Positions 1 through 17,473 of a stretch of DNA of 17,944 nt are shown piece after piece. Origin of the DNA: Deltaproteobacteria bacterium (GTDB lineage Bacteria; Bdellovibrionota_F; JAHFAK01); contig JAHFAK010000030.1 in NCBI GenBank assembly GCA_023250585.1, forward strand, positions 1 through 17,944, read 5' to 3'. The notes under the pieces are model-generated. The model was given only the letters and a program-made list of their open reading frames with translations, searched no databases and was not told the origin of the DNA. A program made the position numbers and the translations under genes. The number at the start of each line of letters is the position of its first letter. The stretch's first letter is position 1.

Positions 1-439
1 CCCACGTGAAATTATCATATCCTAAATCTTTAAAATCTCCTTGTTGTTCCTCTTGAATTTCTGAAAATGTTTTATTGGTCAGGATGAAATCAAATTGTTC
101 CATCTTATAGCGCGCTAGAATTGCCCCAATCGTATTGTTTTGGGAATAATCAAAGAGTTTTAAAGAAACAGATTCTGAATTTATAATCGCAAGAAGTCCT
201 ATAGAAAGAATGGCAAGTGCGATCACTGCTTCAAGTAAACTAAAACCATCCTTATGGACTCTCTGAAAAACTCCTATTTCAGGGAACCTCTCAAAAAAGT
301 CCAGATGCGAGGCGCACGCAAAGCCGCAACCGGAGCATACTCGGGTAGTATGTGAGGATTGTGGTTTTGTGTGCAACGATGCAGATGGGCCTTTTTCAGA
401 GGTTCCCTTATGTATTATCTTTATTTTCGGGATCAACAT
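1..439 (-). CDS. gspI: GspI, type II secretion minor pseudopilin, 3' end outside the window, leader enlarged by a MITE
   Basis: Minor pseudopilin of the T2SS pseudopilus tip. Read on the minus strand, the frame opens at ATG 439-437, inside the end of gspH, after a GAGG at short spacing (3 nt). It stays open to the left edge. The prepilin signature KDG|FSLLEAVIALAIL is at 253-205; the cleavage Gly is codon 247-245, with Phe at +1 and Glu at +5, followed by a hydrophobic helix. The first ten codons (MLIPKIKIIH) join directly to HKDG only if 156 bp are removed. Between them lie 52 extra residues encoded by a palindromic element at 257-405 plus a 7-bp duplication. The restored leader MLIPKIKIIHKDG is of normal length; the actual leader is about 65 residues. 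Prepilin peptidase would remove all of it, so the mature protein should be unchanged, provided the long leader is still handled. The window holds about 80 residues after the cleavage site. Identity as gspI rests on the motif and the position after gspH. Confidence 0.85.
   Translation of the reverse strand, partial: MLIPKIKIIHKGTSEKGPSASLHTKPQSSHTTRVCSGCGFACASHLDFFERFPEIGVFQRVHKDGFSLLEAVIALAILSIGLLAIINSESVSLKLFDYSQNNTIGAILARYKMEQFDFILTNKTFSEIQEEQQGDFKDLGYDNFTW
257..405. mobile_element. 149-bp MITE-like palindromic element in the gspI leader, with 7-bp target duplication
   Basis: The element is flanked by the direct repeat CCTTATG at 250-256 and 406-412. Its two ends, read inward, are GACTCTCTGAAAAACTCC and GAACCTCTGAAAAAGGCC, imperfect terminal inverted repeats. 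Inside is a long hairpin core. AGGGAACCTCT (281-291) pairs with AGAGGTTCCCT (398-408), which runs into the right duplication. The arms at about 314-331 and 357-375 pair with G.T wobbles, CATACT pairs with AGTATG, and the apical loop is CGGG-rich. The core is much richer in GC than its surroundings. There is no transposase and no room for one, so it would depend on an enzyme supplied elsewhere. The gspH stop codon (TAA, 410-408) lies within the right duplication and is unchanged by the insertion. Confidence 0.85.
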
Positions 440-1040
440 AATCCTCAACGATTTCTACACTGCCAATAACGGGATTTACATTCAGGGTATAAATTTTTTC
501 GTTTCTATCCTGTAAATATACCATGGTTTTTTCAGTAAAACCATTAGGGAAAAAAAGACTAAATTCTTTACCTTCTTTAACTACTTTACCTGAATGCTCA
601 GTATAAACACCATGAAAAGAAATACCTATAGGCAGGCTTTCTTTACCAAAAGTATTGGATTCATCTTCAAACGGAGAAAAATTGGCACGAATGGCGATAC
701 GAGATTCTTTCTCATCTTCTTCATTATTTTCTTCTTTTTTTGTTGTTTTTTCCGTTGTGTCTGAATCTTTTTTATCTTTCTCTTCTTCTATAGGTTCTCC
801 ATATTCAATCCAATAGGTACCATTTTCTAAATCATATACAATCCTAAATACTTTGTTTTTAATGACTGACTGATTGTAGGTGTACCGAATCATTGTACCC
901 ATCTGGACACAGGCTCCTTTCATGCCGAGCCCAAAAATTGCAGTTATATTTGGAACAACAAATGTTGCAGTTATGGCAAGAATGAGAACAACTATAACGA
1001 GTTCGAGAAGAGTAAAGCCGCGAGTCTTTTTACTTATCAT
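408..1040 (-). CDS. gspH: GspH, type II secretion minor pseudopilin
   Basis: Minor pseudopilin of the T2SS tip complex, inserted in the inner membrane and processed by prepilin peptidase. The N-terminus MISKKTRG|FTLLELVIVV has the cleavage Gly, Phe at +1 and Glu at +5, followed by the hydrophobic helix (about residues 9-30). The C-terminal part is a plausible GspH beta-fold (FSLFFPNGFTEKTMVYL). Residues about 83-113 form a Lys/Glu/Asp-rich low-complexity insertion between two beta segments, which makes the protein (210 aa) longer than typical GspH. Its ATG overlaps the end of gspG by 11 bp, so the two are probably translationally coupled. Its own last 32 bp overlap the inferred gspI start. 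Order G-H-I is the standard T2SS order and supports the assignment over a generic type IV pilin. Confidence 0.85.
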   Translation of the reverse strand: MISKKTRGFTLLELVIVVLILAITATFVVPNITAIFGLGMKGACVQMGTMIRYTYNQSVIKNKVFRIVYDLENGTYWIEYGEPIEEEKDKKDSDTTEKTTKKEENNEEDEKESRIAIRANFSPFEDESNTFGKESLPIGISFHGVYTEHSGKVVKEGKEFSLFFPNGFTEKTMVYLQDRNEKIYTLNVNPVIGSVEIVEDYVDPENKDNT

Positions 1041-1479
1041 CCTTTTCTTTCCAGTTTCCTATCGTCTTTGGATTATCCTCGTCACCTTCAGTCCAAATAT
1101 CATAGGATTTTCCATGACTGCCTGGATATTCATATTGATAAGGATTATGCCATGAATCTTCGGGAACTTCTTCTTTTCCTAAAAACCCTCCTTCAGGATA
1201 TCCTTTACATTCCTTACCCGCTGTTGGTGGAGATACTAATGCCTCAAGCCCTTGCTCAGTTGATGGAAAGAATCCACAGGTCGTTTTAAAGAGTATCAAT
1301 GCACTTTCTAAATTTTTGATTTGAATACGAGCTGCATTTTCTTTAGCTTGCTTGGCTCCTCCAAGAATATTCACTCCGATAATAGCGCTCAGAATACCCA
1401 TGATGAGAACAACAATCATAATTTCAAGAAATGTAAAACCTCGATTATCGTTTAAGTTTCGTAATAATAGCTTTTTCAT
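1030..1479 (-). CDS. gspG: GspG, major pseudopilin of type II secretion
   Basis: Main subunit of the T2SS pseudopilus. The leader of 14 residues ends NRG|FTFLEIMIVVLIMGIL, with Glu at +5. The family pattern follows: an extended helix (NAARIQIKNLESAL), then FFPSTEQGLEALV, PEDSWHNPYQY, and SHGKSYDIW near the C-terminus. That last region is the calcium-binding loop of known GspG proteins. Here it is Asp/Glu rich (TEGDEDNPKTIGNW) but lacks the usual paired glycines, so calcium binding is plausible and not certain. The length of 149 aa is normal. A strong AAAGGAG lies 6 nt before the ATG. It follows gspF after 29 bp and overlaps gspH. Confidence 0.95.
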   Translation of the reverse strand: MKKLLLRNLNDNRGFTFLEIMIVVLIMGILSAIIGVNILGGAKQAKENAARIQIKNLESALILFKTTCGFFPSTEQGLEALVSPPTAGKECKGYPEGGFLGKEEVPEDSWHNPYQYEYPGSHGKSYDIWTEGDEDNPKTIGNWKEKDDK

Positions 1480-1508: not shown

Positions 1509-2735
1509 TTACCTTCCTACTAACTGTTGCATTTTAAAGATAGGAAGTAAAATGGATATTACCACAAATCCCACAACCAAACCTAATGCTGCTATCATAA
1601 CAGGTTCGAGAAGTGACATGAGCGTTGAGATACTACGATCGACTTCACCATTATATGATTGGCTTACTTTGAGTAACATCTCTTCAAGATTACCGGTCTT
1701 TTCTCCAATTGCAATCATATGTGTGACCATCGCAGGAAATTCGCCACTTGCACGTAACGGCTGTGCAATACCCTGCCCTTCTGAGATACTTTCAGCTGTT
1801 TCTTTAATGACTCTTTGAATAACCAAATTAGAAATAATCACACGGACAATATCCATTGCAGCTAACAAAGGAACGCCTGAAGCAAGCAGGGTACCTAACG
1901 TTTCAGAAAAACGTGCAATAGAAATCATACGAATCATCTTTCCATAGACGGGTAGCTTTAATTGGAATTTGTGGAATTTATATTTTCCTTCATAGGTGCT
2001 CGTAAAACGTCTAAAAAGAAAAAGAGCGAGGAAAAACAAAATAATTAAAACAAACCAATACGATTTAAGAAAATTACTTGTTGCCATCAAAATAACAGTT
2101 GGTAAAGGCAACGCAGCTTTGATGCTTGAGAAAAGACTCGTAATTTTTGGAATAACGAATGTAAACAACGCAATAATAATACCAAAACCCATAAGAGCCA
2201 TAAGCACGGGGTATGCCAGAGCGCCCATGACTTTATTACGAAGAGCAAGTTGTTTCTCAGTGAAATCGGCAAGTTTTTGCAAAACTACATCCAGGTTCCC
2301 CGATGCCTCTCCGGCGCGAATCATATTACAATACATATCAGAAAATACCTTTGGATACAGTTTGAGTGCGTTGGCAAGCGAACTTCCTTGGTTAACTGAA
2401 TCACGAATGGAAGAAATAACTTTCTTGAGTTTAAGATTTTCAGTCTGATCAACAAGAGCGGTAAGAGATTCAACCAAAGGAATATGCGCTCCAATGAGCG
2501 TCGCTAACTGCCTCGTCATATCAGCAACGTCTTGAACACCCACTCTTTCAAAAATATCGCTTAAATGAAATTCATGAACTTTAGAAGAAGAACCATCTCC
2601 GCCCAAAGTTAAGAACGTAGGAAAAATGCCTTCTTTGCGGAGCTTTGCTTTTGCGGCAATAGGACTATCCGCATCGATTAACCCCGCGATTGCTTTTCCC
2701 TGAGTATTAATCCCTTTATATTCGAATACTGCCAT
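1509..2735 (-). CDS. gspF: GspF, inner-membrane platform protein of type II secretion
   Basis: Polytopic inner-membrane protein on which GspE acts to assemble the pseudopilus. It has two T2SSF domains (about residues 70-193 and 271-393 of 408), each with the repeated signature (AGEASGNLDVVL and IGEKTGNLEEML). Predicted membrane segments are at about 173-196, 227-243 and 376-400. The start is placed at ATG 2735 (MAVFEYKG, the usual family N-terminus); an in-frame TTG at 2741 adds two residues but has no support. There is no Shine-Dalgarno directly before either start. The nearest one, GGAGAAAGG at 2806-2814, overlaps the gspE stop and is separated from the ATG by a repeat hairpin (see 2741-2807). 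Confidence 0.93.
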   Translation of the reverse strand: MAVFEYKGINTQGKAIAGLIDADSPIAAKAKLRKEGIFPTFLTLGGDGSSSKVHEFHLSDIFERVGVQDVADMTRQLATLIGAHIPLVESLTALVDQTENLKLKKVISSIRDSVNQGSSLANALKLYPKVFSDMYCNMIRAGEASGNLDVVLQKLADFTEKQLALRNKVMGALAYPVLMALMGFGIIIALFTFVIPKITSLFSSIKAALPLPTVILMATSNFLKSYWFVLIILFFLALFLFRRFTSTYEGKYKFHKFQLKLPVYGKMIRMISIARFSETLGTLLASGVPLLAAMDIVRVIISNLVIQRVIKETAESISEGQGIAQPLRASGEFPAMVTHMIAIGEKTGNLEEMLLKVSQSYNGEVDRSISTLMSLLEPVMIAALGLVVGFVVISILLPIFKMQQLVGR

Positions 2736-2740
2736 ACGCA

Positions 2741-2807
2741 ATTAGCGGTTATCGGTTAGCGGTGTGCGGTTAGCGTTAGAGAAAAATGAAAACGCTAACC
2801 GATAACC
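2741..2807. repeat. GGTTAGCGGT-type palindromic repeat, copy 1, between gspE and gspF
   Basis: GGTTATCGGTTAGCG (2747-2761) and its exact reverse complement (2793-2807) form a perfect 15-bp stem. An alternative 11-bp stem is CGGTTAGCGTT (2767-2777) with AACGCTAACCG (2791-2801), loop 13 nt. The two stems share bases and exclude each other. The 23 bases at 2754-2776 recur with one mismatch on the minus strand at 10557-10579, so this is a dispersed family. It sits exactly between the gspF Shine-Dalgarno and start codon. Confidence 0.8.
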
Positions 2808-2814
2808 TTTCTCC
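2806..2814 (-). promoter_or_regulatory. Displaced Shine-Dalgarno of gspF
   Basis: On the minus strand GGAGAAAGG begins at the last base of the gspE stop codon (TAG, 2816-2814). It is the only good ribosome-binding sequence upstream of gspF, but the ATG at 2735 is 70 nt away. The intervening bases fold into the 15-bp stem of the repeat at 2747-2807, which could bring the two together in the mRNA. This role is inferred from position. Confidence 0.5.
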
Positions 2815-4631
2815 TATTCCTCTATTACTGAATCAACTTGCGTTGCTTTCAATACTTCTTCTATGGTCGTTACGCCTTCTGCTACTTTTAAGGCTCCATC
2901 ATCTCGCAAGGTTAACATGCCACGAGCAAGAGCTGCTTTTTTAATAGTAACTGAATCTACACTTTTCAAAATAAGACCTCGAATTTCATCATCGATGGGC
3001 AAAAATTCATAAATACCACTTCTGCCTTTATAACCAGTTCCTTGGCATTTATCGCATCCTTGCGCCTTATAGATAACTCCGCCCTTAATATATTCCTTTT
3101 TAATATTGAGAATTTTTAATTCATCATCAGTAGGAGTCACTGGTTTACGACACTCGAGGCAAACTTTACGGATAAGTCGTTGAGCAAGTACAGCGACCAA
3201 TGATGATGATACTAAGAACGGCTCTATTTCCATATCGGTCAACCGAGTTACCGCACCAAAGGAATCATTGGTGTGTAACGTACTAAAAACAAAATGTCCG
3301 GTAAGAGACGCTTGGACTGCAATTTCAGCTGTTTCACTATCTCGAATTTCTCCAATCATTATTACATCCGGGTCTTGTCGTAAGATTGATCGTAATCCAT
3401 TCGCAAAGGTAAGATCGATTTTGGGATTTATTTGAATTTGTCCAATACCCTCAAGCTGATATTCGACAGGATCTTCAACGGTAATGATATTTTTTTCGAC
3501 GCTATAAATTTTTGATAAGCATGCATAGAGTGTGGTCGTTTTTCCTGATCCTGTGGGTCCTGTAACTAAAAATATACCATGAGGTTTATAGATTACTTCC
3601 AAAATCTTCTGATAATTTTTATCAGAGAGCCCAATGGTTTTTAAATCAAGCATAACGTTACTCTTATCTAAAAGTCGCATAACGATACGTTCACCATGTG
3701 ATGTCGGAAGCGTTGACAGACGAACATCAATATCTTTTCCCGCAATTTTAATACGAATACGTCCATCTTGCGGAAGGCGCTTCTCAGCAATGTTGAGTTT
3801 TGCCATGATTTTAATTCTTGTCGCGATACTCTGCTGATATTTTTTTGGTGGCTTCATAACATCATAGAGCGCACCATCAATTCGGTAACGAACGGCTAAA
3901 TCTTTTTCAAAAGGTTCTATGTGAATATCACTTGCGCCCTCTTTAACTGCACGAAATAATATTGAGTTGACGAGACGAATAATGGGCGCTTCTTCATCAC
4001 TTTCAAGAAGATCTTGAGGTTCTTCAAAATCTAAATTATCCATATTTTCATCAAAGTCTTTCATTTCATCCTTGGTATCTTTTGCTCTATCATATATTCG
4101 ATTAATGGCTTCGATTATTTCTGTAGGCTTTGCGAGAACCAAACGAATTTCTGTTTCCAGTAAAATACGTATATCATCGATAGGAGAAAGATCATTTGGG
4201 TTTTCAATTGCGACTATAATAAAATCTTCCTCGTGCTTGATAGGAATAATCTTAAACTTCTTCGCAAAGTTAATAGGAATTTTTTTAATAAGTTCAACAT
4301 CCAAGTCAGCTGCATCTATTTTTTTCTGATAAGGAATATTATATTGATAGCTTAAAGCATTATAGATTTCATCCTCAGTCACATATTTTTTCTTAAGAAG
4401 AATTTCTCCTAATTTTTCTTTTTTACTTTGACTCTTCTGAACTTCAATTGCTTCATTAAGCTTTTCAGGAGTAATCGTTGAAGTCATGAGCAAAATGTCA
4501 CCTAAAAGCAATGACTGCTGATCCCGTGAGCTTTCTGTCTCTATAATTTTTTTAATCTTATTATTATCTATACTCGTAAGCTCATCAATGAAATCATTAA
4601 TGAGATCGCGTACACTATGTTCTCTGGCCAT
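2814..4631 (-). CDS. gspE: GspE, type II secretion ATPase
   Basis: Cytoplasmic hexameric ATPase that drives pseudopilus assembly. An N-terminal MshEN/GspE-N domain lies at about residues 55-180, followed by an acidic linker (about 185-215, rich in Asp/Glu) and the secretion ATPase core. Visible motifs are Walker A GPTGSGKTT (358-366), the Asp box around GASDIHIEP (232-240), Walker B in DPDVIMIGEIRD (420-431), and the His box SLTGHFVFSTLHT (442-454). A four-cysteine zinc site follows (Cys491, Cys494, Cys526, Cys529), typical of GspE/PilB. The length of 605 aa is slightly long because of the N-terminus. GGAG lies 7-8 nt before the ATG. The gap to gspD is 24 bp. The C/D/F/G/H context makes GspE rather than PilB. 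Confidence 0.96.
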   Translation of the reverse strand: MAREHSVRDLINDFIDELTSIDNNKIKKIIETESSRDQQSLLLGDILLMTSTITPEKLNEAIEVQKSQSKKEKLGEILLKKKYVTEDEIYNALSYQYNIPYQKKIDAADLDVELIKKIPINFAKKFKIIPIKHEEDFIIVAIENPNDLSPIDDIRILLETEIRLVLAKPTEIIEAINRIYDRAKDTKDEMKDFDENMDNLDFEEPQDLLESDEEAPIIRLVNSILFRAVKEGASDIHIEPFEKDLAVRYRIDGALYDVMKPPKKYQQSIATRIKIMAKLNIAEKRLPQDGRIRIKIAGKDIDVRLSTLPTSHGERIVMRLLDKSNVMLDLKTIGLSDKNYQKILEVIYKPHGIFLVTGPTGSGKTTTLYACLSKIYSVEKNIITVEDPVEYQLEGIGQIQINPKIDLTFANGLRSILRQDPDVIMIGEIRDSETAEIAVQASLTGHFVFSTLHTNDSFGAVTRLTDMEIEPFLVSSSLVAVLAQRLIRKVCLECRKPVTPTDDELKILNIKKEYIKGGVIYKAQGCDKCQGTGYKGRSGIYEFLPIDDEIRGLILKSVDSVTIKKAALARGMLTLRDDGALKVAEGVTTIEEVLKATQVDSVIEE

Positions 4632-4655
4632 ATTTTTCTCCGTTTATACTGAGTT

Positions 4656-7073
4656 TTACTCAAATTTTTCCCATTCGTTATCTTCATTTTTTTCTGAAGG
4701 CTGATCATTTTCTGATGGAGGTTCTTTACTTTCATCTTTAGGTCCTATTTGATCTTCAGGTTGTCGCTCCTGAGCTCGCTCTTCTGGCGTTATTATCGTG
4801 GAACGTTCTTCCCGTTTTTCTTCTGGGGTGGTTTCTGCGGGAATTTTTTCTTCGGGTGTTTCTTGTTTTACTCCTTCTTGAGTTTCTTCTTGTTTTTGTT
4901 TTACTTCACCTGAATCCTCTGTATCGCTCTTTTCATCTTTTTCTATAACGTCCTCCGGCTTTTCCTCTACAGGCGCTGGGGGTAAAGATTCTGGAAATGG
5001 TTTTGCTGGCTCAAAGTTTTCTGCTCGCTCACGTCGTGGTTTCGGTTCAGGAAGAGGAGTGAGTTTTATACCCATATCTTCGAGTTTTTTATTTTGTTCC
5101 ATTCCATGTTTTTCTAAAAAGAGTTCTCGTTGCTTTGTTTTTTCCAGGAATATTTTACCCATATCCTCCGGTGTTTCAATAATATAGGGAGTTGCAATGA
5201 GAATTAGGTTTGTCTTCTGCTTTGATTTACCGGTGTTTCTAAAAAAGAATCCCAACAGAGGAATATCCCCTAAAATTGGAACTTTCGAAACTGTTTTTGT
5301 TTCACGATCACCAATCAAACCACCAATAACAACCGATTGCCTATCTTTAACAACAACTGTTGTTTTTGCATTACGTTTCGAGGTTGATGGTCCCTGGGTT
5401 TGTATAATCGAAGGATTTTGTCCTTCTAAAAGTTCTTGAACATCTTCTTCAATTTTTAACGTCACTTCATCACGAGAGCTTACCTGTGGAGTAATACGTA
5501 AAGTAACACCGATATTTTCTCGTGTAACATTGACAATCGGGTTCATATTTGTGTCGCGAGCAGTACTTGATACAAATGGAACGCTTGATCCTACTTGAAT
5601 AACCGCCTCTTCATTATCAGTTGTTAGGATATGAGGTGTTGACAGGATATTCACATTTGAATTATTTCCAACGGCACGCAAGATTGCGCCGACAACCGGA
5701 ACTGTAATGTCAGTTCCTCCAGGAATATCAAGGGTTGCAGTATCTTTGCTAGAAAATCCAACCAATAATCCCGAACTTGTTAATGGATCATTAGGATTAA
5801 GAGCAGAATTAAATCCACCAAAGGTTGCGCCAAAGGTAGTTCCAAAATCGGTGAGTTTATTACCGATAGCTGCGTTACCAGCAAAACCTCCAACATTATA
5901 TCCACTCGATATTGCTACTTCCATAATCACTGATTCAACGAAAACCTGTTTTCGTCGCGCATCGAGTCTATTGATAATTTGACCAACAAGAATTTTATAA
6001 TCTGAAGGAGATGCAACGATAACTAAGGCATTCGTTGCAGCATCAGCGACTATTTTAATTTCTCCTTCAAAACTTACGGTACTCTCGGGGCCTCCTCGTC
6101 CACCGGATGGTCTTCCCGCTCCGGTTGTTATACTGCTTAATGTCTTTGCCATTTCGACAGCATCAGCATTTTCAAGATTGTATACATGGAAATTTCCACC
6201 AGAATCTCCACTTCCCAGCGGGATGTCGAGTTTCATGATTACTTCTTTAACCTTTTCAATTCCTGCTTTTGTTGCAAGAACAATAATGGAGTTATTTCGT
6301 TCATAAGGAATTAATTTTGAAATTGCGGAGGATTCTAAATCAGAAACTACATTGGGATCTTTGGGCGCACCTTTTCTTCCTCCTTCTGAGAGATGAAATA
6401 TATCTTCAAGTTTTTCTACAATTTCTTTGGCCGATCCATGTAGTACCTGAATAAGAGCAAATTTCTCCTGATATCCTTTGACATCCAAGTTTTCAATAAT
6501 CCGTAAAACTTTAGCAATATTTGCTTTTGAATCGGTGATAATTAACATTTGGGTGGGAGCATAGGCTGTTACCGTTCCTTCATTTGAGATTAAACCCTTC
6601 ACAATCTTGGAAATTTCATTAACATCGATATATTGTATATTAATTATTCGAGTCATATACGGATCAGCAAAAGGAGATTTACTTAAATAAGTAGGAATAG
6701 CTTCATGAACAGCATCACGCTTTTGAATAATTTTAATGATACTTCCTTCATGAACCGTTGTATATCCCGCAATATCAAGAGCTGATAAAAATGCTTGGTA
6801 AGCGGCATCTACCGGCATTCCTTTTGGACCTATAATAGTAACTTTATTTTTAACCTTACTTGAATCAAACGCAAAATTGAGCCGCATCATCTTTGATACG
6901 GTTTCAATAACATCGGTTAATTCAACATCACGGAAATCAAATGAATCTACGTAGAGTTGTTGGCCTTGCTTATAGGTTTTCCGGCCGGCCGCTTCTGGAG
7001 CAGCAATTGACTTAGTTCCTATGAATGCCATGAGCATTACTACGGTCAGTACCATTTTCGTTGTTCTTTTCAT
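4656..7073 (-). CDS. gspD: GspD, outer-membrane secretin of type II secretion, with long charged tail
   Basis: Forms the outer-membrane channel. A signal peptide occupies about residues 1-25. The N0 domain (about 38-118), N1 (138-198), N2 (205-285) and N3 (293-372) precede the secretin barrel (about 375-635), which contains NVNILSTPHILTTDNEEA and the VPILGDIPLLGFFFR signature. After about residue 675 comes a Pro/Glu/Lys-rich, probably disordered tail of about 130 residues in place of the short S-domain of classical GspD. N3 has a Gly-rich loop (GRPSGGRGG). Start: AAGGAG at 7085-7080 lies 6 nt before ATG 7073, and an adjacent ATG at 7076 is nearly as good. A GTG at 7091 would overlap the gspC stop but has its Shine-Dalgarno inside the gene, so I reject it. 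Confidence 0.95.
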   Translation of the reverse strand: MKRTTKMVLTVVMLMAFIGTKSIAAPEAAGRKTYKQGQQLYVDSFDFRDVELTDVIETVSKMMRLNFAFDSSKVKNKVTIIGPKGMPVDAAYQAFLSALDIAGYTTVHEGSIIKIIQKRDAVHEAIPTYLSKSPFADPYMTRIINIQYIDVNEISKIVKGLISNEGTVTAYAPTQMLIITDSKANIAKVLRIIENLDVKGYQEKFALIQVLHGSAKEIVEKLEDIFHLSEGGRKGAPKDPNVVSDLESSAISKLIPYERNNSIIVLATKAGIEKVKEVIMKLDIPLGSGDSGGNFHVYNLENADAVEMAKTLSSITTGAGRPSGGRGGPESTVSFEGEIKIVADAATNALVIVASPSDYKILVGQIINRLDARRKQVFVESVIMEVAISSGYNVGGFAGNAAIGNKLTDFGTTFGATFGGFNSALNPNDPLTSSGLLVGFSSKDTATLDIPGGTDITVPVVGAILRAVGNNSNVNILSTPHILTTDNEEAVIQVGSSVPFVSSTARDTNMNPIVNVTRENIGVTLRITPQVSSRDEVTLKIEEDVQELLEGQNPSIIQTQGPSTSKRNAKTTVVVKDRQSVVIGGLIGDRETKTVSKVPILGDIPLLGFFFRNTGKSKQKTNLILIATPYIIETPEDMGKIFLEKTKQRELFLEKHGMEQNKKLEDMGIKLTPLPEPKPRRERAENFEPAKPFPESLPPAPVEEKPEDVIEKDEKSDTEDSGEVKQKQEETQEGVKQETPEEKIPAETTPEEKREERSTIITPEERAQERQPEDQIGPKDESKEPPSENDQPSEKNEDNEWEKFE

Positions 7074-7087
7074 CATTATCTCCTTCT

Positions 7088-7996
7088 TCACTTTACTTCA
7101 TACCTCAACGATTCTTTTTTACCCTGTCTTTGTACATTTATGGTAAAATTCGATGCATTTCGCAAATCCTGAAAAAGTCCCAATGATGATTCAATACTAT
7201 CGAGATTTTTTCCATTGACCTGTTCAATGACATCACCATTTTTAAGTCCAAGTTCTCTGAAAATACTTTTATAGCGAATAGAAAGAATTTTAAATCCCTG
7301 CATTTGTCCTTGCACCATATAAGGAACCGCTCGTGCTTCACGTAAAATGTTGTTAATATCCGACAAAGATGCTTCAAGTTTTTCACGTGCAATCTCAAAT
7401 TCGTTCTCGCTCTTTTTATAAATTCCGTCCTCAACATTTCCTACTCCACCTTTTGATCCGGTGGAACTTTTTGAAGCCATATCTTCTTCTGACTGGAGTC
7501 CTTCAACTTCAAGATATTCTACATATCCACCTCTATTAATCAAAACCTTATTGCGCTGAATATCAACAATCACTCCATCTTCTAGTCTATCGTTCAAACT
7601 ATATTGGTCCGTCTGATTTTGATAAAAAATTGTCGCGATTGAATACTCGGGGATACTCATAATAACCGTACCCAAAAGCTTCGCTGCTATTTTGCTGCGA
7701 ACAACATTTTTATTTGCCTCATCGACTATCACTTGTTCTAAACTCTTTTGGGTATTTTTAGAATCAAAAATGTTCCGGTCACTAATAGTTTCGTATACTT
7801 TTTTATCTAATGACTTTTTGATGACCCTTTCATTCTTAATCCTCTCTAATTGGCCATTGTCTATTTTCTCGCCAGATATATACAACTGTGCTCCTACAAC
7901 ATTCATAATAATATTAGCTAACATGAGCCCTATAATTCCTAATGCAAATAAATTAATCGCCCAATTGTATTTCTTTAAATACAGTTCAATATTCAT
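7088..7996 (-). CDS. gspC: GspC, inner-membrane/periplasmic linker of type II secretion
   Basis: Bitopic protein linking the inner-membrane platform to the secretin. A short cytoplasmic N-terminus precedes a membrane helix at about residues 13-35. The homology region that contacts GspD N0 follows at about 65-165 (KIAAKLLGTVIMSIPEYSIATIF). Then come a Ser/Gly-rich linker, a probable helical segment (about 200-222), and a C-terminal PDZ domain (about 225-302, with LGLKNGDVIEQVNGKNLDS). The length of 302 aa is normal. It is the first gene of the operon: a strong promoter lies about 60 bp upstream and a hairpin closes the preceding gene. No strong Shine-Dalgarno is visible before the ATG. Confidence 0.93.
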   Translation of the reverse strand: MNIELYLKKYNWAINLFALGIIGLMLANIIMNVVGAQLYISGEKIDNGQLERIKNERVIKKSLDKKVYETISDRNIFDSKNTQKSLEQVIVDEANKNVVRSKIAAKLLGTVIMSIPEYSIATIFYQNQTDQYSLNDRLEDGVIVDIQRNKVLINRGGYVEYLEVEGLQSEEDMASKSSTGSKGGVGNVEDGIYKKSENEFEIAREKLEASLSDINNILREARAVPYMVQGQMQGFKILSIRYKSIFRELGLKNGDVIEQVNGKNLDSIESSLGLFQDLRNASNFTINVQRQGKKESLRYEVK

Positions 7997-8701: not shown

Positions 8702-8732
8702 TTACTACCTCATTTACTGAGCTGTTACAACC

Positions 8733-10490
8733 TTACTTATCTTTTTCTTTTTGCTCAAAAAAATTTGTTACTGCTTCATAGGAAGCTTTACTAACTTCAA
8801 GAACGATCCCTTCATCAGCTCTATACACAAAAGCTTTATCCATTTCAACTTTTCCAAAATGCACCTGAACGTCTTCATTATTTTTTCCTTTAATATGAAG
8901 TGTAAATCCCTTATCAAATTCATAGGGTTTTAAATCAGTATTAAAGCTAAATTTAGTTACTTTCAGATTATCAATAGCCTCGAGAAATTCAACTGCAGCC
9001 TTACTGTCTTTCTCAATCAGTTTATCGTTGCTATATTTTTGCCACGTATCGTTTGTATTTTGCACATAGCGAATCTTTTTTTCTGGTATACTCATCTCGG
9101 TTATATTCCATCGAGGAATGGTAACCAATTTTTCCTCACGCACATTTTCAACAGAAACCGCAAAAAGCTTGTCTTTATCCTCTTTTTTAATCGTATATAT
9201 AAACGGATCGTTATATTTTTTTACATAAAATTCTTTGGCTTGAGCATTTTCTCTGCCAATCATAAAACCAAATGTATTATTTTCGCTATCCTCGATATCA
9301 ACGCTCATAATTGGCTTTGTGAAACCATAGGTAGATTCTTTCTTAAGATCAGCATGAATGGATTCAATTCTCATGATTTCAATTGTCTTGAGTGTATTTA
9401 AAAAATTATTGAAGATCGTCTGGTCAGTTATAAATTTAACTGGCGTCGTTCCATACCATTTTAGAGCTTCATGAGAAAAAATTATTTGGCGATCTTTGGT
9501 AAAGATAAGTTTTTTTAAGTCCCTACTTTCGAAGTTTACTAATTTTTTATCAACTAAATCAGCGAGGGTTTTGTTCAATGTATTAAAATCTGATTCATCA
9601 AGAGAAACAAGAACATCGTTCTGAGAAGAGTGGAAATAAAAACTCTTTTCGCCTTTGGTATTTTTATTGAATGCAATACTAAACGTAATAGTTTCTTTGG
9701 TCTTAAGATCAAAACTCATCGTAATAGCTGGCTTCTGTAATCCATATTTTTTTAGATCATCGGGATCAGCTTTTTCAGTGATAAAAGATTGAGCATGAAG
9801 CTCTACAATAGCCGAGAGAAGCGCAGCAACTCCATCCCCTAAACTATGCACAATTGGTTCAGTGAGTATCCATTTCTTTTTATCTTCATCAAAAGAAGCC
9901 TTATAATGTCCATGTTCATTCTGTAAGGTAAAGCCGCGAATATCATCTGCTTTAAGATTGTGAAAAACGCTTTTTTCTCTCAATTCACTTAAATCTTTTG
10001 TTTTAATATCATCGAGATTTGTCTCCACAAGATACAGCGCCGGATCACTATCCTTTTTTAAATACGAAGCTGTTTTATCCGGACTTTTTGAACCGAGGAC
10101 AAAATTAAATTGTTTATTATCATTGGTATGAAAGGAAATAGTAGTCGCTTCAACACCGAGTCCAAACGTGTCGCCATTAACTTGGATATCTTTAATGGTC
10201 TTCTTAATTTGTAACATCACAATATCTTCACTTAAATTTTTTAGTACGGTATTATTAGCTTCAGTATTAATGGGTTCTAAAATTTTCCACGTTGAATCGG
10301 GAGACTTTTTAAAATCAAATTTTCCTTTTTGATTTTTTAATTCAATCTCAGTGATCGCATCTGCACCAAAGGTATACATCTTTTTTGCCTCTTCTTCATG
10401 TGTCTCTCGATTTTCTTTTCTCTGAAGAGATTTATGGGCAAGAAAGAAAAGTATTAAAAAGATGCCTAATACAATTAACGTTCGTTTCAT
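8733..10490 (-). CDS. DUF4340 protein with four tandem repeat units, membrane anchored
   Basis: An N-terminal hydrophobic helix (about residues 3-19) anchors it, with the rest probably periplasmic. The body is four copies of one unit at about 45-170, 182-316, 324-450 and 460-578. Each begins with a strand of the type ITEIELKN, GFTLQN or LKKLIFT. A W-containing strand follows (WKILEPI, WILTEPI, WYGTTP, WQKY), then a helix, then (in units 1-3) a YG/FG-containing turn (TFGLGV, KYGLQKP, TYGFTKP), and finally a strand with the pattern of FVLGSKSPDKTASYL. This matches DUF4340 (found beside Gld-like ABC genes). AAGGA lies 8 nt before the ATG. The gene is last in the ABC operon, separated from its neighbour by a repeat hairpin. 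Its biochemical role is unknown; position suggests it works with the transporter. Confidence 0.85.
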   Translation of the reverse strand: MKRTLIVLGIFLILFFLAHKSLQRKENRETHEEEAKKMYTFGADAITEIELKNQKGKFDFKKSPDSTWKILEPINTEANNTVLKNLSEDIVMLQIKKTIKDIQVNGDTFGLGVEATTISFHTNDNKQFNFVLGSKSPDKTASYLKKDSDPALYLVETNLDDIKTKDLSELREKSVFHNLKADDIRGFTLQNEHGHYKASFDEDKKKWILTEPIVHSLGDGVAALLSAIVELHAQSFITEKADPDDLKKYGLQKPAITMSFDLKTKETITFSIAFNKNTKGEKSFYFHSSQNDVLVSLDESDFNTLNKTLADLVDKKLVNFESRDLKKLIFTKDRQIIFSHEALKWYGTTPVKFITDQTIFNNFLNTLKTIEIMRIESIHADLKKESTYGFTKPIMSVDIEDSENNTFGFMIGRENAQAKEFYVKKYNDPFIYTIKKEDKDKLFAVSVENVREEKLVTIPRWNITEMSIPEKKIRYVQNTNDTWQKYSNDKLIEKDSKAAVEFLEAIDNLKVTKFSFNTDLKPYEFDKGFTLHIKGKNNEDVQVHFGKVEMDKAFVYRADEGIVLEVSKASYEAVTNFFEQKEKDK

Positions 10491-16985: not shown

Positions 16986-17210
16986 ATGCCAAGAACTACC
17001 TTTGCAGTTAAGCTTGATGTAAAACTTCAGAAGACAGTTAAAGAATTTTGTGAGATTCATGGTTTTAAACAAGGCTCTTTTATTGAAAAGGCAATTCGTG
17101 AACAGATAGACCGAGAAGAACTTGCTCACGATCTTCTTGATCTCTATACCTTACGTTCAACTGAAACTCTTGCCATAAGTCTTGATGATTATCTTAAAGG
17201 ACGAAAATGA
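16986..17210 (+). CDS. RelB/ribbon-helix-helix type antitoxin
   Basis: Protein of 74 aa. The N-terminal strand TTFAVKLDVKL and the two helices after it (LQKTVKEFCEIHG, KQGSFIEKAIREQIDRE) fit a ribbon-helix-helix DNA-binding domain of the CopG/RelB type. The C-terminal part (about 48-74) ends LAISLDDYLKGRK, as in antitoxins that wrap around a RelE-type toxin. Its stop overlaps the toxin ATG by 4 bp (ATGA), so translation is coupled. It probably neutralises the toxin and represses its own promoter. It is recognised mainly by context and architecture; the family name within the ribbon-helix-helix group is not certain. Confidence 0.8.
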   Translation: MPRTTFAVKLDVKLQKTVKEFCEIHGFKQGSFIEKAIREQIDREELAHDLLDLYTLRSTETLAISLDDYLKGRK

Positions 17211-17473
17211 AATCGTCTTATATAATTTTTATTATTCCTAAAGCTCAAAAAGATCTCAATTCTCTTGAAAAAAAGGATTTTCCAAAAATTCAAAAAGTTA
17301 TCGAAACTCTAGCTGAAAATCCACGCCCTTATGGCTCATTAAAATTAAGCGGCGAAGAAGGATACAGAATTCGCGTTGGAACATTGAGGATTCTCTATCG
17401 TATTGATGATAACGCTAAAAAAATTTTTATTTATCGAGTACAACATCGGAAAAATGTCTATAAAAATCTTTAG
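17207..17473 (+). CDS. RelE/ParE superfamily toxin
   Basis: Protein of 88 aa with the whole RelE/ParE fold: a first strand YIIFIIPKAQKDLNSL, two helices, then SLKLSGEEGYRIRVGTLRILYRI split around the central strands, and the closing IYRVQHRKNVYKNL. Arg and Lys residues of the YRIRVG, RILYRI and HRKNVY blocks correspond to the basic surface that contacts ribosome-bound mRNA in RelE enzymes. RelE-type members cleave mRNA in the ribosome, while ParE-type members act on gyrase. The HRKxVY ending favours the RelE group, but I cannot settle the target. It is intact and follows its antitoxin with a 4-bp overlap. It converges on the peroxiredoxin gene with only 29 bp between. Confidence 0.88.
   Translation: MKSSYIIFIIPKAQKDLNSLEKKDFPKIQKVIETLAENPRPYGSLKLSGEEGYRIRVGTLRILYRIDDNAKKIFIYRVQHRKNVYKNL

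Follow-up and report, generated by a model that had tools for sequence, protein, structure and literature searches.

Rickettsia palindromic elements (RPEs) are palindromes of about 150 bp that lie in frame within protein genes (review PMC10969869). In Coxiella burnetii, the insertions of QMITE1 and QMITE2 in functional annotated genes are all at the 3' end, where several of them supply or abut the stop codon, and, among genes whose function is known, none is reported to be affected at the 5' end (PMC5896051). Prepilin leaders are cytoplasmic and of variable length, and prepilin peptidase cuts them off (PMC10191384). The window examined here (the whole 17,944-nt stretch of DNA that was analysed) carries a MITE-like palindrome in the leader of gspI, a pseudopilin gene of a type II secretion system (T2SS). 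As with RPEs, this is a palindrome in frame in a coding gene, but RPEs occupy unrelated genes and contribute a conserved peptide, whereas a single copy lies in a cleavable leader here. Nor does the family show the conserved peptide frame and repeated coding insertions of RPEs, since open frames vary or are lacking and most copies sit at gene ends. Compared with QMITE1 and QMITE2, to which the element is likened by description and not by sequence, the overlap of two genes means that an insertion at the 3' end of one is also at the 5' end of the other. REP sequences offer a further likeness, being dispersed non-coding palindromes, and the genome has Y1/RAYT-like genes; the present elements differ in measuring 120-150 bp and having target duplications, and only 1 of 27 Y1 loci has an element. 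A search of the open-licence literature turned up no description of a prepilin leader that contains a mobile element. The confinement to such a leader, regarded as unusual in an earlier note on this DNA, thus appears to be new, although in-frame palindromes and 3'-end MITEs are already known.

The window contig stops within gspI, and the missing part was found on contig C107 through an exact 120-bp overlap. The whole gene encodes 289 residues, leader included, and is not decayed. It was identified as gspI by its prepilin motif and by its position after gspG-gspH and before gspJ; the truncated ORF matches TIGR01707 (gspI) with an E-value of 3.3e-6, its score falling short of the curated cut-off. 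On C107, gspI is followed by gspJ (PF11612) and then by gspK and the start of gspL, these two assigned by appearance only. With gspC-gspH in the window and the rest on C107, the T2SS operon looks intact. Elsewhere in the window, a ParE-like toxin gene (PF05016) lies at 17207-17473 on the plus strand. Features of the locus are collected in Table 1.

Table 1. Coordinates of the gspI insertion and its surroundings in the window.
Feature	Position	Strand	Details
gspI, 5' part	1..439	-	continues on contig C107; full length 289 aa
Prepilin leader with the insertion, 65 residues (ancestrally 13), end ...HKDG^FSLLEA	245..439	-	translation
Target duplication CTTAT, left copy	251..255	.	direct repeat CCTTATG 250-256
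MITE-like palindromic element, 151 bp	256..406	.	ends GGACTCTCTGAAAAA / CTTTTTCAGAGGTTCC; borders by copy alignment
Left extension, 27 bp, with additional copy of terminal motif	256..282	+	copy alignment
Core hairpin unit, 124 bp	283..406	+	modelled as covariance model R1
Target duplication CTTAT, right copy, includes gspH stop codon	407..411	.	direct repeat CCTTATG 406-412
gspH stop codon TAA, retained by duplication	408..410	-	ORF 408-1040
gspH-position pseudopilin	408..1040	-	3' end overlaps gspI start by 32 nt; ORF
gspG, major pseudopilin	1030..1479	-	TIGR01710 above cut-off
gspF, gspE, gspD, gspC, same operon	1509..7996	-	profile matches

The insertion had been described as a 149-bp palindrome (257-405) flanked by a 7-bp direct repeat, CCTTATG, at 250-256 and 406-412. 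Both the palindrome and the repeat are present, but their borders moved once the copies were aligned. In an alignment of 34 copies, the outer G and C (GGA...TCC) are element bases in most copies; the element therefore spans 151 bp, and the duplication is most likely 5 bp. CCTTATG as a plain 7-bp duplication was accordingly dropped, the repeat being probably CTTAT plus one element base per end. The sum of element and duplication, 156 bp or exactly 52 codons, is unchanged by the new borders. Folded as RNA, positions 256-406 gave -73.6 kcal/mol (z = -7.8), a value equalled by none of 200 shuffles, and 283-406 form a single long hairpin. At gathering score, Rfam gave no match in the window or in ten related loci, tRNAs excepted.

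The genome is represented by a single MAG of 2.24 Mb in 164 contigs. Searching it with the element, as the earlier note had proposed, gave 40 BLAST matches (best 95%), and at least 37 near-complete copies are present, together with a second, more diverged subfamily revealed by an end-motif search. The element is thus short, multi-copy and non-coding and has terminal inverted repeats, as MITEs do. Exact flanking duplications of at least 5 bp were found around 11 of 33 copies, whereas random re-pairing of the flanks gave 2.1 on average and never more than 7 in 1000 trials. The element is mobile. Around the window copy the duplication is perfect, with CTTAT on both sides, which suggests that the insertion into gspI is recent. 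Evidence for the insertion event comes from the duplication and from homologues that are distant: in a class-level relative (G001), the gspI start lies on the gspH stop and the leader, 14 residues long, lacks the insert, and short-leader gspI starts are possible in most other T2SS relatives. The view of a MITE-like, multi-copy, duplication-flanked element standing in frame in the leader of an intact T2SS pseudopilin is borne out. Among the other copies, some lie between operon genes (L006:1500-1648, L017:1500-1652 and L022:1499-1648), the pairs being rpsC-rplP, pgk-tpiA and two ABC transporter genes, the last by ORF appearance. Plasmids and phages gave no match to the element.

Most copies of the family adjoin the end of a gene. 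In a test of 37 copies, flanks were joined by script and the distance to the nearest stop was taken, with greedy long ORFs on the copy loci, not a curated annotation, serving as genes. A gene stop lay within 6 bp of 25 copies (p about 4e-19), whereas the corresponding shares in the same loci are 6.6% for intergenic positions and 8.1% for TWWA sites. Retaining both copies of the duplication in the same test gave 22 of 37. The window copy was missed by the script because 4 bp were removed where the duplication is 5; its addition by hand, the gspH stop (408-410) being inside the duplication, brings the copies at gene stops to 26. The duplicated sites are TA-rich (e.g., TTTA, TAAA and TATA) and overlap TAA/TAG stops. 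Moreover, both element ends begin with G, and a junction of TA with this G reads as TAG. The gene-end excess may come either from target choice or from the purging of harmful insertions, which are indistinguishable here. Together with the overlap of gspH and gspI, this gene-stop habit would explain why the leader was hit; the earlier note had missed both.

Related elements occur in other genomes. A covariance model (R1) built from 36 copies of the core hairpin matched in 21 of 289 other genomes, the class-level relative not being among them. The related elements have different stem sequences but share recurring internal motifs, among them AGATGCAAGGCG and CAACGNNGCAGATG. Covariation was assessed on 36 matches aligned by fitting to the model, five palindromes being represented by both strands. 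Changes on both sides were seen in 37 of the 39 pairs. The covariation score was 0.614, compared to 0.186 for shuffled and 0.06-0.10 for slid alignments, again with the matches fitted to the model. In these genomes the gene-end tendency is weaker, with 6 of 28 copies adjoining a gene end vs. 5.7% expected (p = 0.004). No Rfam family matches the related elements, and a literature search with short element motifs returned no relevant paper. The related elements point to a widespread family of covarying palindromes for which Rfam has no entry.

The account we favour, and consider likely, is that a MITE-like element inserted at the gspH stop and that the gspI leader was extended in frame as a collateral effect, which is tolerated. 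As the repeat, the copies and the borders show, a non-autonomous palindrome landed on the gspH stop codon and duplicated CTTAT; its family settles mostly at gene ends, in short TA-rich sites over TAA or TAG. Where the target's TA meets the element's G, the resulting TAG lets the upstream gene retain its stop. With the gspI start 32 nt inside gspH, an insertion harmless to gspH fell within the gspI leader, which grew from 13 to 65 residues while the gene remained open. That gspI stayed open is due to the 156-bp length of element plus duplication and to the one stop-free frame. The added residues are expected to lie on the cytoplasmic side, and cleavage by prepilin peptidase after ...HKDG should take them off, leaving mature GspI unchanged; since the leader remains cytoplasmic, their export is not expected. 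The insertion likely persists through tolerance, not benefit. The insertion is real and looks recent, and elements of this kind are known; its interest lies in the landing habit and the gene overlap. Such a route would give mobile DNA a simple, low-cost entry into protein: the element lands on a stop codon, preserves a stop and, if the next gene overlaps, runs over into a portion that cleavage removes.

The family could also stand at gene ends by function, its 3' hairpins serving as mRNA ends or stabilisers. The strong gene-end excess and the stems that covary across genomes are both in keeping with such a role, which is compatible with the account above. However, copies lie within operons that have to be read through (rpsC-rplP, pgk-tpiA and gspH-gspI), so strong termination is unlikely, and the target duplications speak for mobility. 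On balance we regard a function of this kind as possible but doubtful.

Three features of the leader claimed in the earlier note agree with our analysis. The gspI frame runs through the element without a stop and is the only open one among the six frames of the window copy; deletion of 156 bp gives back the ancestral leader MLIPKIKIIHKDG; and the extra residues are confined upstream of the G^F cleavage site, i.e., to the cleavable leader. Nevertheless, a prepilin leader of 65 residues is long, and the gspH-gspI message contains a very stable hairpin; translation through it is possibly slower. The hairpin or the long leader might thus lower or abolish GspI, and the perfect duplication would suit a recent, mildly harmful allele that is being lost. 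Against such damage, gspI and the genes that follow it are all open and intact, and the frame was kept, as few family copies would do: when 33 copies were placed at the gspI site, the frame was open in only three of them (the window copy, L002 and L008). We therefore consider damage to GspI unlikely, though somewhat less so than recruitment of the added peptide. An in-frame TTG within the element (374-376) could also serve as an alternative gspI start.

The earlier note had further allowed that selection may keep the added peptide, and it had pointed to a Cys-rich patch in the long leader, which could slow export or processing. The majority sequence of the closest copies is already open in the gspI frame, and the window copy differs from it at four positions, all four of which change an amino acid. 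Because of these two observations we see no sign of constraint or selection on the added peptide, bearing in mind that four changes are few, and the patch, for which no support was found, is family sequence. That the peptide was recruited, with the patch regulating export or processing, is consequently very improbable even though the gspI frame alone is open.

Several candidates for a mobilising enzyme were considered. Two DDE_Tnp_1 genes were rejected as the parent IS, as their ends are unrelated to the element, and DDE_Tnp_1_6 and DDE_Tnp_1_4 are absent from the genome. Single element ends, taken as possible ends of a parent element, proved to be remnants, with no parent in the stretches read. 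No autonomous parent with matching ends was found among the families searched in this MAG of 164 contigs. A RAYT/Y1 mobiliser was likewise set aside on the Y1 linkage given above. Two Y1 transposase genes are present in the genome (L204 and L205), one IS200-like and one RAYT-like. Truncated copies that have the outer end but not the core hairpin were observed at seven loci (L146, L147, L156, L157, L160, L167 and L168).

Palindromic repeats were also observed in prepilin leaders of another lineage. Palindromic heptad repeats lie in the gspH and gspJ leaders of both Ca. Manganitrophus (L094) and a MAG of the Manganitrophaceae (L086), and in L086 in that of gspI too; they are read in frame (L094:7763-7850 and 8732-8884; L086:7443-8703). 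The L094 gspH repeat is dispersed, with 17 matches in its own genome and 42 in the L086 genome. Judged by sequence, these repeats look unrelated to the window element. Across 80 T2SS loci, inverted repeats were only weakly enriched in leaders, and no general excess is claimed: with runs of N set apart, exact arms of at least 10 nt were found in 7 of 264 leaders vs. at most 2 of 264 controls, one being an uninspected value of 42 nt. It is a speculative idea, and one we hold to be rather improbable, that palindromic repeats have repeatedly found prepilin leaders a safe place to land, and that some of these repeats come from an unnamed, structured family that seeks out stop codons and occurs in many bacterial lineages. 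Prepilin leaders are nonetheless a place in which to seek palindromic insertions.

One further copy of the window element's family (L014:1500-1652) is located close to where a 320-aa ORF begins; this ORF has no Pfam match. When its flanks are joined by eye, the ORF has a signal-peptide-like start, making this a possible second N-terminal case.
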